Source: Methylomarinovum tepidoasis (GTDB lineage Bacteria; Pseudomonadota; Gammaproteobacteria; Methylococcales; Methylothermaceae). Taken from it: 64,000 nucleotides of DNA. The stretch's first letter is position 1. Every line of letters starts with the position of its first letter. Shown here piece by piece: positions 20,093 to 26,047 of the stretch. Location: contig NZ_AP024718.1 of assembly GCF_030294985.1 (NCBI RefSeq), positions 248,001-312,000 on the forward strand. Direction: 5' to 3'. A program made the translations under genes and the position numbers. Below the pieces are notes generated by a model that did not search any database, had not been told where the DNA came from, and saw only the letters and a list, made by a program, of their open reading frames with translations.

Positions 20093-21988
<1,896 letters not shown>

Positions 21989-24397
21989 TCACTTTTCTCC
22001 CTGGTCAAATGGCAACGGCAACGCCAGCTCGAGGGTTTCGAACCAGTCCCGGAACCGTCCCTGGATGCGTTCCAGCGCCGCGGTATCGTCGGCCTCGAAA
22101 CGGAATTGCAGCGCCGGGCGGGCGTAGGCCGCCCGTACCGCCCCCCAGCCTGTGGCGAAATCGATGCGCACCCCGAAACCGGCATCGACCTTGGCATCGT
22201 CGAAGAACCTGTCCGCCGTCTGCTGGAGTAGTTTCAACGTGCGCTCGGTTTCCTCCAGCGATTCCAAAGGGGTCTCCAGATAAGGGGTGACGACGCTCTG
22301 GGGCAGTCCGGCGAAGAGCTCGTCCGAGGTCAGGGGATCGGCCGAGAGCACCTCCACCAGCCGGGCGGCGCCATAGATGGCGTCGTCGCTGCCGATCCAG
22401 CGTTCCCGGAACCACAGATGGCCGCTGAAGCTGCCCCCCAGCGCCGCCCCGGTTTCCTGCAGTTTGGCCTGCAGCTGGCACGGCAAAGGCAATGCCGTCA
22501 CCGGCCGGCCGCCGTGCTGGACCACGTAGCGGGAAGCATGGCGGCTGCACTCGGTGTCGAATACGATGTCGCTCCCCGGCTCCCGCGACAGCACGTCCCC
22601 CGCCAGCAACATCAGCACCCGGTCGGCGGGCACCCAGCGTCCCTGGGCGTCGACCACCGCCAGGCGGTCGCCGTCGGCGTCGAACGCCAGGCCCAGTTCG
22701 GCCTCGCCGTCGGCCGCCACCCGCCGCCCCAGGGCTGTGAGCGCGTCCTGCCGGGCCGGGTCGAACAGCCCCTCGCTGTGGATTTCCTCCACCTCGCACC
22801 CCAGGGTGCGCAGCAGGGCAGTCACCGTCTCGCCGACGGTACCGACACCGCGATCGACGATGACCTTGAGCGGCCGGCCGAGCTGGACGTCGTCCATTAC
22901 CGTGCCGATGTAGTCGGCCAAAAGGTCGCGGTTTTCCACCTGCCCCATCCCGCTGGCGAACCGTCCTTGCGCCAGACGCTGCCGCAGTTCCAAAAGACGC
23001 TTGCCGGACCAGGCCTCCCCGGCGATGGTCAGCTTGAGGCCGCCGTATTCCAGCGGGCAGCTCCCGCCCGTGACCACTAGGCCGGAGCGGACGTTGAGGT
23101 AATGGCAACCGAAGTGGACCAGGGGGGCGGGAACGGCGCCGAGATCGATGACGTCCCGACCGCTGGCGCACAACCCCTCGACAAGCGCGGCGGCCAACGC
23201 CTCGCTGCCCTCGCGCCGGTCCCGCCCCACCACCACGGCCTGCTCGCCCTGGGCCTGGATTTCGGTGCCGATCGCCTGGCCGAGGGCCTGAAACACCTCC
23301 ACCGGCAGTTCCGCAAGCGGCGCCCTGAGGTCGCAGGGTTGGAAAACGCGCTTTGCGGGAACCTGGATGGTCGTCTCGGACACCTCCACATCCCCGGATC
23401 CGGTACTGTCCGCACTCACCTTCACAGCACCGGAATCGGTTCGGGTTTTTCGCTCGACCTCCCGACGTAACGCCTCGTCCTCCTCCTTGAGTTCCGCACG
23501 GTCCACAGGAGGCGACAAAAGCAGCAACCGGTCAATCAACGGTTGCAGTTCTTTCGCTTTGAGCGGATAAAATTCCTGCCTTCTCCCCAACCGCCAATCA
23601 TCGAGGAAGCGCAGCAGCATGGCCACGTCCGCCTGCAACGACCGGCTGATCCGGCGCCATCCGAAATATCCAGTCAACACGATGACCGCCACTGCCGCCG
23701 CCCACAAGACCAGCGCGTAAACAGGCCCCGAATCCTTCCCAACCGGCCAATAGACGATCTCCCATTCCGTTCCTGGCACCTGAATCCTGCCCTCCGGCGT
23801 CATACCTTTGAGCGCAGCATCGCCACGAAACGCCAGCATCGCCTTGCCCTGCATCAGGGCGTAGGCGCCAGTGGGGGGCGGTGTCAGATCGCGCTGTAGC
23901 CATTTCGGGTCCAGCGCCACCAGCAGCACCGCCAGCGCCTGGTCGCCGCTGCGGATCGCGCGGGCGAGAGCCAAATGCCGCTGAGGGGAGCCGAGACCGT
24001 GCATCGCCAATGGCGGCGCGGCGCTCACGGCCCGTTGGGCCAGGTCCAGATCGGCGAAACTGAGCACGCCCTGGCCGACATCGGTGCCTACGGGAAGCAG
24101 ACGCACCCACAAGGCGTCCGGGAGCATCCGTTGCAACCGGGCTTCGATGGCGTCCCAGGGCTGCCCGGCCAGCTCGGTTTCCCAGCGGGGATCGCGCGCC
24201 AGGGCATCGACCAGCTGCTGCGTCCCCTCGGCCCGGGCGCCGATCTGGGCGGCGACCGCCTTGGCGTAGGCGGCCCAGTGCGATGCCTGGTCTTCCTGGG
24301 CCTGACGCCAGGAGAAGAAATACACCCCGCCCACCGTCAGCGTCAGCGCCAGCACGGCGACGATGAGAAGGACAATCAACCAGCGTGCCAGACCCAT
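21989..24397 (-). CDS. AlgC-like phosphohexomutase homologue with membrane sensor domain; active site degenerate
   Basis: An 802-residue protein in the syntenic algC position. Start ATG 24397 leads straight into membrane helix 1 (about 6-28); a periplasmic domain and helix 2 (about 226-246) follow, then a linker and a phosphohexomutase domain (about 351-797). The Mg loop is kept (DADGDR, 573-578). Other sites differ from P. aeruginosa AlgC as I recall it: the phosphoserine motif TGSHNP reads TGGSCP (443-448), the sugar loop GEMSGH reads GSFSGH (655-660), the phosphate loop RASNTTP reads RAAYARP (755-761), and KTGHS reads LPLPC (636-640). It may be inactive as phosphomannomutase/phosphoglucomutase. 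Confidence 0.82.
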   Translation of the reverse strand: MGLARWLIVLLIVAVLALTLTVGGVYFFSWRQAQEDQASHWAAYAKAVAAQIGARAEGTQQLVDALARDPRWETELAGQPWDAIEARLQRMLPDALWVRLLPVGTDVGQGVLSFADLDLAQRAVSAAPPLAMHGLGSPQRHLALARAIRSGDQALAVLLVALDPKWLQRDLTPPPTGAYALMQGKAMLAFRGDAALKGMTPEGRIQVPGTEWEIVYWPVGKDSGPVYALVLWAAAVAVIVLTGYFGWRRISRSLQADVAMLLRFLDDWRLGRRQEFYPLKAKELQPLIDRLLLLSPPVDRAELKEEDEALRREVERKTRTDSGAVKVSADSTGSGDVEVSETTIQVPAKRVFQPCDLRAPLAELPVEVFQALGQAIGTEIQAQGEQAVVVGRDRREGSEALAAALVEGLCASGRDVIDLGAVPAPLVHFGCHYLNVRSGLVVTGGSCPLEYGGLKLTIAGEAWSGKRLLELRQRLAQGRFASGMGQVENRDLLADYIGTVMDDVQLGRPLKVIVDRGVGTVGETVTALLRTLGCEVEEIHSEGLFDPARQDALTALGRRVAADGEAELGLAFDADGDRLAVVDAQGRWVPADRVLMLLAGDVLSREPGSDIVFDTECSRHASRYVVQHGGRPVTALPLPCQLQAKLQETGAALGGSFSGHLWFRERWIGSDDAIYGAARLVEVLSADPLTSDELFAGLPQSVVTPYLETPLESLEETERTLKLLQQTADRFFDDAKVDAGFGVRIDFATGWGAVRAAYARPALQFRFEADDTAALERIQGRFRDWFETLELALPLPFDQGEK

Positions 24398-24399
24398 GG

Positions 24400-24858
24400 T
24401 CAATGCCGCCCGGTATGCCCGAAACCGCCACTGCCCCGCCGGCTGGGCGTGAACTCGGTCACGGTTTCGAACGCCACCTGCACCACCGGCACGAACACCA
24501 TCTGGGCGATGCGCTCTCCCACCTCGATGGTGAAAGGCTCGGAACCCCGATTCCAGCATGACACCATCACTTCGCCCTGATAGTCGGAATCGATCAGCCC
24601 CACGAGATTGCCGAGAACGATGCCGTGCCTGTGGCCGAGGCCGGAACGGGGCAGCAACACCGCCGCCAGGGAGGGATCGCCGATGTGAATGGCCAGGCCG
24701 GTGGGGATCAGGGTGGTTTCCCCGGGCGCCAGGGTCAGCGGCGCCTGCAGGCAGGCTCTCAGATCCAGTCCGGCCGCCCCCTCGGTGGCGTAGTGCGGCA
24801 GGGGAATCTCCCGGCCCAGACGGTCATCGAGAATCTTCAGTTCGATTTTCTTGTCCAT
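24400..24858 (-). CDS. dut: dUTP diphosphatase Dut
   Basis: A 152-residue homotrimeric dUTPase that hydrolyses dUTP to dUMP. The five motifs are in order: [39 protein letters not shown] and the flexible C-terminal arm [10 protein letters not shown]. Its 5' end overlaps the end of coaBC by 35 bases, and the algC-like start follows 2 bases after its stop, so the genes form one coupled transcript. Confidence 0.96.
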
Positions 24859-26047
24859 AACGTTCGCCGATCAAGGTTATCAGTCGCCGGGCCAGCGCCT
24901 TCTTGGAGGCCGTACCCAAATCCCGTTCCCCGCCGGGCCAAAACACCCACAGGGTGTTGTCGTCCCGGTCGAATCCCTGGCCGGGACCGACCGGGTTGGC
25001 GGCGATCAGGTCCAATCCCTTGCGCGCCAGCTTGTCCCGGGCGTATTCCCGCACCCGTTCGGTTTCGGCGGCGAAACCGACAGTGAAAGGGCGCGGCCGA
25101 TGGGTGGCGACGGCGGCCAGGATGTCCGGGGTCCGGACCAGCTCCAGCTGCAGCCGGTCGCGGTGCTTCTTGAGCTTCTGCCCCGCTACCGTCACCGGGG
25201 CGTAGTCGGCCACCGCCGCCGCGCCGATGAAAACGTCGCAGTCGGCCACCCGCGCCATCACCTGTTCATACATCTGCGCCGCGCTTTCCACCGCCACCAC
25301 CGCGACACCGGCCGGTGAGGGCAGAGACACCGGACCGCTCACCAGCACCACCTCGGCCCCGGCTTCCCGGGCGGCCTGGGCCAGGGCGTAGCCCATCTTG
25401 CCGGAGCTGCGGTTGCTGAGGAAACGCACCGGATCGATGGCCTCTCGGGTCGGGCCGGCGGTGATCAGCACCCGCCGCCCCGCCAGCGGCCCGCCCCGCC
25501 AACAGGCTTCGAGGTGTTCGAAAATCTCAGCCGGCTCCAGCATCCGTCCCGGCCCTGCCTCGCCACAGGCCTGAGCACCCTCGGCCGGTCCCCAGATGTC
25601 GACGCCCCGCTGCCGCAGCACGGCGACGTTTTCCCGGGTCGCCGGATGCTGCCACATGACCCGGTTCATCGCCGGCGCCACGGCGACGGGCGCTTCGGTC
25701 GCCAGGCACAGAGTGGTCAAAAGATCATCGGCCATGCCTATTCTGAGTCTAGCCAGAAAATCGGCGCTCGCCGGGGCGATCACCACCTGTTCGGCCCAGC
25801 GCGCCAGTTCGATATGCCCCATGGCCGCCTCCGCCCGGGGGTCGAACAAGCCGGTCCGCACCGGCCGGCCCGACAGAGCTTGCAGGGTCAACGGCGTGAT
25901 GAAGCGGGTGGCGGCCTCGGTCATCACCACCTGGACCTCGGCGCCGGCCCGCCGCAGCAGGCGCACCAGCTCGGCGGTTTTGTAGGCGGCGATGCCGCCG
26001 GTGATACCGAGCAGAATCCGGCGCCGGGACAGTGTTCGAAATTCCAT
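24824..26047 (-). CDS. coaBC: bifunctional phosphopantothenoylcysteine decarboxylase/synthetase CoaBC
   Basis: A 407-residue two-domain enzyme of coenzyme A synthesis. The N-terminal flavin-dependent CoaC half has [10 protein letters not shown], the PAMNRVMW substrate motif and the [10 protein letters not shown] loop with the active-site cysteine; the C-terminal CoaB half begins with [29 protein letters not shown] and ends with VGFAAET and [11 protein letters not shown]. It joins cysteine to phosphopantothenate and decarboxylates the product. It starts only 15 bases from the divergent radC start, so their promoters must overlap one another or the coding regions. Confidence 0.95.

Follow-up and report, generated by a model that had tools for sequence, protein, structure and literature searches.

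A predicted transmembrane Cache-type module fused to a degenerate phosphohexomutase domain at the algC position of Methylomarinovum tepidoasis

What could be the role of an AlgC-type protein in which residues of the catalytic centre have been replaced and the membrane part has been kept? This question is raised by a gene lying between dut and argB in the 64,000-nucleotide stretch of DNA analysed here (the window). Methylomarinovum tepidoasis IN45, from which the stretch is derived, is a moderately thermophilic vent methanotroph of the Methylothermaceae with a complete chromosome of 2,421,873 bp, sequenced at 1058x coverage (PMC10950024). The features of the locus are as follows.

21077..21988, minus strand: argB, downstream neighbour of the algC-position gene
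21989..24397, minus strand: algC-position gene (ATG at 24397), predicted Cache-TM-pseudo-phosphohexomutase of 802 aa
22007..23359, minus strand: degenerate phosphohexomutase domains I-IV, residues 347-797 (Pfam PGM_PMM_I-IV; fold match 1pcj)
22115..22135, minus strand: phosphate loop RAAYARP (AlgC RASNTTP), Arg kept, Ser-Asn-Thr lost
22418..22435, minus strand: sugar loop GSFSGH (AlgC GEMSGH), Glu lost, Ser and His kept
22478..22492, minus strand: LPLPC replacing KTGHS, lost
22664..22681, minus strand: metal loop DADGDR, retained
23054..23071, minus strand: phosphoserine loop TGGSCP (AlgC TGSHNP), Ser lost
23360..23515, minus strand: disordered linker, residues 295-346 (pLDDT <50)
23516..23728, minus strand: second transmembrane (TM) helix and cytoplasmic helix-loop-helix, residues about 224-294 (model and alignment)
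23732..24307, minus strand: periplasmic Cache-like sensor domain, residues about 31-222 (dCache_1 matches in homologues; fold matches)
24308..24391, minus strand: first TM helix, residues about 3-30 (AlphaFold2 model)
24400..24858, minus strand: dut, upstream neighbour of the algC-position gene
24824..26047, minus strand: coaBC

The order coaBC-dut-algC-argB, which the original prediction had called conserved, is found in the window as well as in relatives, and algC of Pseudomonas aeruginosa occupies the same operon position. All that had been observed of the gene itself (reading frame, motif positions and gene order) was borne out in every detail. An ORF at 20093-21133 on the plus strand is convergent with argB, the 3' ends of the two overlapping by 57 bp; its homologue adjoins argB in most of the loci checked, including three without an algC-type gene.

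Active-site residues and fold of the mutase half

Residues 347-797 of the protein align to the PMM/PGM of P. aeruginosa (AlgC) with an E value of about 1e-98 (phmmer) and 37-38% identity. Pfam domains I-III of the PGM/PMM family score above the cut-off and domain IV under it (18.4 vs 23.1 bits), and all four are present as homology. The AlphaFold2 model of this part (pLDDT mostly >90) has the phosphohexomutase fold, with the same four domains as AlgC (PDB 1k35, 1pcj), 1pcj being the best match in the PDB with a target-normalised TM score of 0.91.

The active site of the superfamily is defined by four loops (PMC6443537), which are the loops concerned here, and the role of the phosphoserine in phosphohexomutases has been described (PMC5192239). 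The DADGDR of the M. tepidoasis protein (residues 573-578) matches the metal loop of the active enzyme, D-x-D-G-D-R; TGGSCP (443-448) does not match the phosphoserine motif T-[GA]-S-H-N-P, nor do GSFSGH (655-660) and RAAYARP (755-761) match the sugar loop GEMSGH and the phosphate loop RASNTTP. These replacements, along with LPLPC for KTGHS at 636-640, had been predicted at exactly these positions, as had the intact metal loop, and the bases of the TGGSCP site read ACG GGC GGG AGC TGC CCG. The Ser of this site had been described as shifted by one. In the alignment with AlgC structures the phosphoserine loop is free of gaps and Gly445 stands at the position of Ser108, hence Ser446 corresponds to His109 and not to Ser108, and a catalytic Ser displaced by one residue through misalignment is rejected.

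In AlgC numbering, which we take from the alignment and general knowledge of AlgC, the replaced residues are Tyr17 (Cys), Ser108 (Gly), His109 (Ser), Asn110 (Cys), Lys285 (Glu), His308 (Pro), Glu325 (Ser), Ser423 (Ala), Asn424 (Tyr) and Thr425 (Ala), while Arg20, Lys118, Asp242/244/246, Arg247, Ser327, His329 and Arg421 are kept. The protein thus retains 9 of the 19 AlgC active-site positions, as against a mean of 18.8/19 in 65 intact relatives of the same order, a loss that exceeds chance and supports the earlier claim that catalytic residues have gone. When active-site and other near-invariant positions are compared (9/18 vs 67/93 kept, p 0.06), the losses in this protein alone are only weakly biased towards the active site; the bias is strong in several other lineages, for example in G033 (7/18 vs 83/93, p 1e-5). 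The canonical mutase mechanism is very unlikely to operate, judged from these replacements of Ser108 and other catalytic residues; a residual or altered activity may persist because the metal loop, Lys118, Arg247, His329 and Arg421 remain. A search of open papers yielded no report on residual activity of AlgC Ser108 mutants.

Membrane module preceding the mutase domain

The N-terminal half had been claimed to retain a membrane sensor region, and the model and fold matches agree with it in identifying this half as a transmembrane Cache-type sensor module, with a periplasmic Cache fold between two TM helices. The first TM helix continues in the AlphaFold2 model into a long periplasmic helix that ends at residue 67, and the second is followed by a HAMP-like helix-loop-helix, with no HAMP match among the Pfam families listed. 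When residues 1-303 were modelled separately (pLDDT 85, pTM 0.72), the fold search returned almost only periplasmic sensors of the Cache type (KinD, McpB, DctB, Tlp3, CtaA, PctA), with E values of 1e-6 to 1e-3. Of 26 homologous modules, 14 match Pfam dCache_1 (best E 9.7e-8; the scores listed are all under the Pfam cut-off), and the M. tepidoasis protein has no dCache_1 match of its own.

A homologous module also stands N-terminal to the mutase in Pseudomonas (hhalign probability 98, E 2.5e-13), including Pseudomonas AlgC, and in Stenotrophomonas (probability 97.7). The Cache-mutase fusion is therefore old and, from these profile alignments, ancestral in Gammaproteobacteria.

The module is present in 203 of the 311 genomes of the order searched. 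Among the matches listed, the frame containing the module measures 317-408 aa in about 27 genomes, and contig ends may have truncated some of these frames. Twelve stand-alone modules were checked, each in a different genome, and every one is terminated by a stop codon of its own. The stand-alone gene of G032 and G035 is flanked immediately by dut and argB. A separate mutase ORF comes after the module in G305 and G088, and the stretch examined holds no mutase in the other ten, some of these stretches ending soon after the module. Stand-alone-module genomes are mostly without the TGSHIP-type mutase described below. Mutase domains were surveyed in 13 such genomes, and in 11 of these the module has no mutase next to it. 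Three matches are present in eight of the 11, with an ORF of about 460-490 aa as the third; only two, GlmM- and Pgm-like, are present in G131, G296 and G273. Retention of the module both where catalysis has been lost and where the mutase part has gone argues that the module itself is functional. That function is nevertheless dispensable in some lineages, since in five genomes of the order (G039, G054, G019, G060 and G026) dut directly adjoins argB and the locus holds no AlgC-like gene. A fragment is kept at the dut-argB locus of G043, and in G175 (L166), G172 and G177 a stand-alone Cache module gene adjoins a fused Cache-mutase gene in tandem.

A short acidic-aromatic motif (such as DDDDFDIEGLFDE) occurs in the cytoplasmic tail or linker of L115, L116, L190, L186 and L187, in the fused linkers of G041, G059, G029, G038 and G056, and also in Pseudomonas L083. 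With a pattern written after the tails were seen, it was counted in 5/42 fused linkers against 0.45 in shuffles. A common docking site at this motif is rejected, the motif being confined to those 5/42 fused linkers and absent from M. tepidoasis.

Repeated loss in Methylococcales and the remaining mutases

The active site has been lost in 19 of the 84 Methylococcales genomes examined, and a tree built from 71 mutase domains shows at least seven changes between the intact and the degenerate state. The order-wide survey thus rejects a peculiarity of a single gene; on the evidence of the sequences the M. tepidoasis gene exemplifies a recurrent loss, a result that goes beyond the original prediction. 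In the Methylothermaceae group eight of ten genomes are without the active site (variants TGGSCP, TGGSAP, TAGSDP and TGSSSP) and two still have TASHNP and RASNTTP; the tree places these losses as one loss within the group. The ten genomes, which are labelled as a single genus, were handled as a family-level group because one of them is probably Methylohalobius, the motifs of the named Methylohalobius locus L035 being those of L014. The active site is also lost in G011 and G018, G033 and G072, G057, G076, G199 and G218, and G304; in G036 and G088 the loss is nearly confined to the Ser. The 80 named loci, found with search patterns that favoured a normal metal loop, are intact except for L035 and small variations. 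That relatives have repeatedly undergone this loss suggests an additional role of the protein outside catalysis.

If the protein is inactive, another phosphohexomutase must supply mannose-1-P and glucose-1-P, as the original prediction had pointed out, and the genome search gave three further members of the family: GlmM (L001) and Pgm (L002), both assigned by NCBIfam, and a TGSHIP-type mutase of 568 aa with intact motifs, which adjoins tyrS (L003, G000:C1:1165781-1167484). The closest solved relative of the last is 4hjh, deposited as a phosphomannomutase (Brucella), and L003 is probably the phosphomannomutase of this genome. A gene for GDP-mannose pyrophosphorylase (ManC) is present; GDP-mannose is therefore made, and mannose-1-P and a phosphomannomutase are still needed. 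The three other mutases can cover this chemistry. Relatives of L003 occur in 129/311 genomes of the order, many of their frames being only about 490 aa.

The TGSHIP-type mutase is found in 19/19 degenerate genomes against 26/65 intact ones (Fisher p 7.6e-7, relatedness ignored). When independent pairs are compared the association is not significant, about two of six pairs agreeing and none disagreeing, and the 19/19 pattern is hence rejected as proof that an alternative mutase permitted the loss.

Proposed role and competing explanations

The observations are probably best explained by a Cache receptor whose mutase domain became a pseudoenzyme and serves as a scaffold output, after the chemistry was taken over by the TGSHIP-type mutase and Pgm. 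The protein would be a receptor-like membrane protein in which a periplasmic Cache domain between two TM helices is connected, through a cytoplasmic helical relay and a flexible linker, to an AlgC-type phosphohexomutase fold that is presumably no longer catalytic. In Methylothermaceae the intact-motif mutase beside tyrS, together with Pgm, may have assumed the chemistry. The active site of the fused enzyme would thereby have been freed from selection, which would have continued to act on the sensor module and on the fold of the mutase domain. The Cache domain would then sense a periplasmic ligand, with the mutase fold acting as a protein-binding or ligand-binding output. A sensor or scaffold role, already suggested in the original prediction and inferred here for M. 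tepidoasis, could also be more general: the AlgC locus of Gammaproteobacteria may encode a bifunctional protein, Pseudomonas AlgC likewise, whose Cache receptor signals independently of sugar-phosphate chemistry and has been uncovered repeatedly in Methylococcales by loss of activity, with the pseudoenzyme as signalling output. This wider proposal is tentative, and we hold it somewhat more doubtful than not.

An unlikely but still serious competitor is a passenger domain, in which only the Cache membrane module matters and the mutase is a relic, its fold preserved to avoid the damage that a misfolded tail would do, and eventually to be deleted as in the relatives with stand-alone modules. Stand-alone modules in many relatives, the long branches of several degenerate mutase domains and the partial loss of conserved positions outside the active site would all fit such a relic. 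It is opposed by a comparison with the sister species (G003), in which the mutase half (dN/dS 0.165, 93% identity) is better conserved than the membrane half (dN/dS 0.244, 83% identity), and by the full-length ORFs of nine of the ten group members, the tenth (670 aa) being incomplete at the end of its stretch. The mutase domain is thus constrained although its catalytic residues are gone, and this purifying selection favours a pseudoenzyme output over a passenger.

The same strong purifying selection, with the metal loop, Lys118, Arg247, His329 and Arg421 kept, would also be expected of a domain that still catalyses, either with Ser446 or another residue carrying the phosphate or on a different substrate. 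Such catalysis is quite improbable, as Ser446 lies at the His109 position of an unshifted loop, the losses extend to the sugar-loop Glu and the phosphate-loop Ser-Asn-Thr, and the loops of each lineage degrade differently. A decaying pseudogene or a sequencing error, to which the loss of near-invariant residues might point, is hardly credible and is ruled out by the complete genome at 1058x, the intact 802-aa ORF, the dN/dS well below 1 and the sister species, 88% identical, which has the same TGGSCP and RAAYARP.

A Cache receptor with a pseudoenzyme output can be set beside several known systems. AlgC is known from textbooks for its part in alginate and LPS synthesis, and most work on it has dealt with a soluble protein of 463 residues; it shares the fold and the N-terminal membrane module with the M. 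tepidoasis protein, which differs in being without the phosphoserine, the sugar-loop Glu and the phosphate-loop residues. GlmM, an active enzyme, provides in its complex with the cyclase CdaA (PDB 7olh, 9g69) a phosphohexomutase fold that binds a membrane protein, but as two separate proteins. The Cache receptors KinD, DctB and PctA likewise have two TM helices around a periplasmic Cache-like domain; the output in M. tepidoasis is predicted to be a dead mutase fold and not a kinase or chemotaxis domain. To our knowledge, no bacterial pseudo-phosphohexomutase tied to a receptor has been described; none was found among open-licence papers, which also gave nothing relevant on transmembrane, Cache or pseudoenzyme aspects of AlgC. 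A precedent for a non-catalytic member of the family is the inactive vertebrate phosphoglucomutase PGM5 (aciculin) (PMC7761743). It is, however, eukaryotic and retains the Ser and substrate binding, whereas the M. tepidoasis protein has lost the Ser and binding residues and has its mutase domain tied to a Cache sensor.

Repeated loss of catalysis with the Cache module kept points to a second, hardly studied function of AlgC, for the testing of which the degenerate AlgC-type genes offer natural separation-of-function variants. At L031 (G036) and L189 (G088) the Ser is replaced by Gly and nearly all other active-site residues are intact, and these loci appear to represent early stages of loss.
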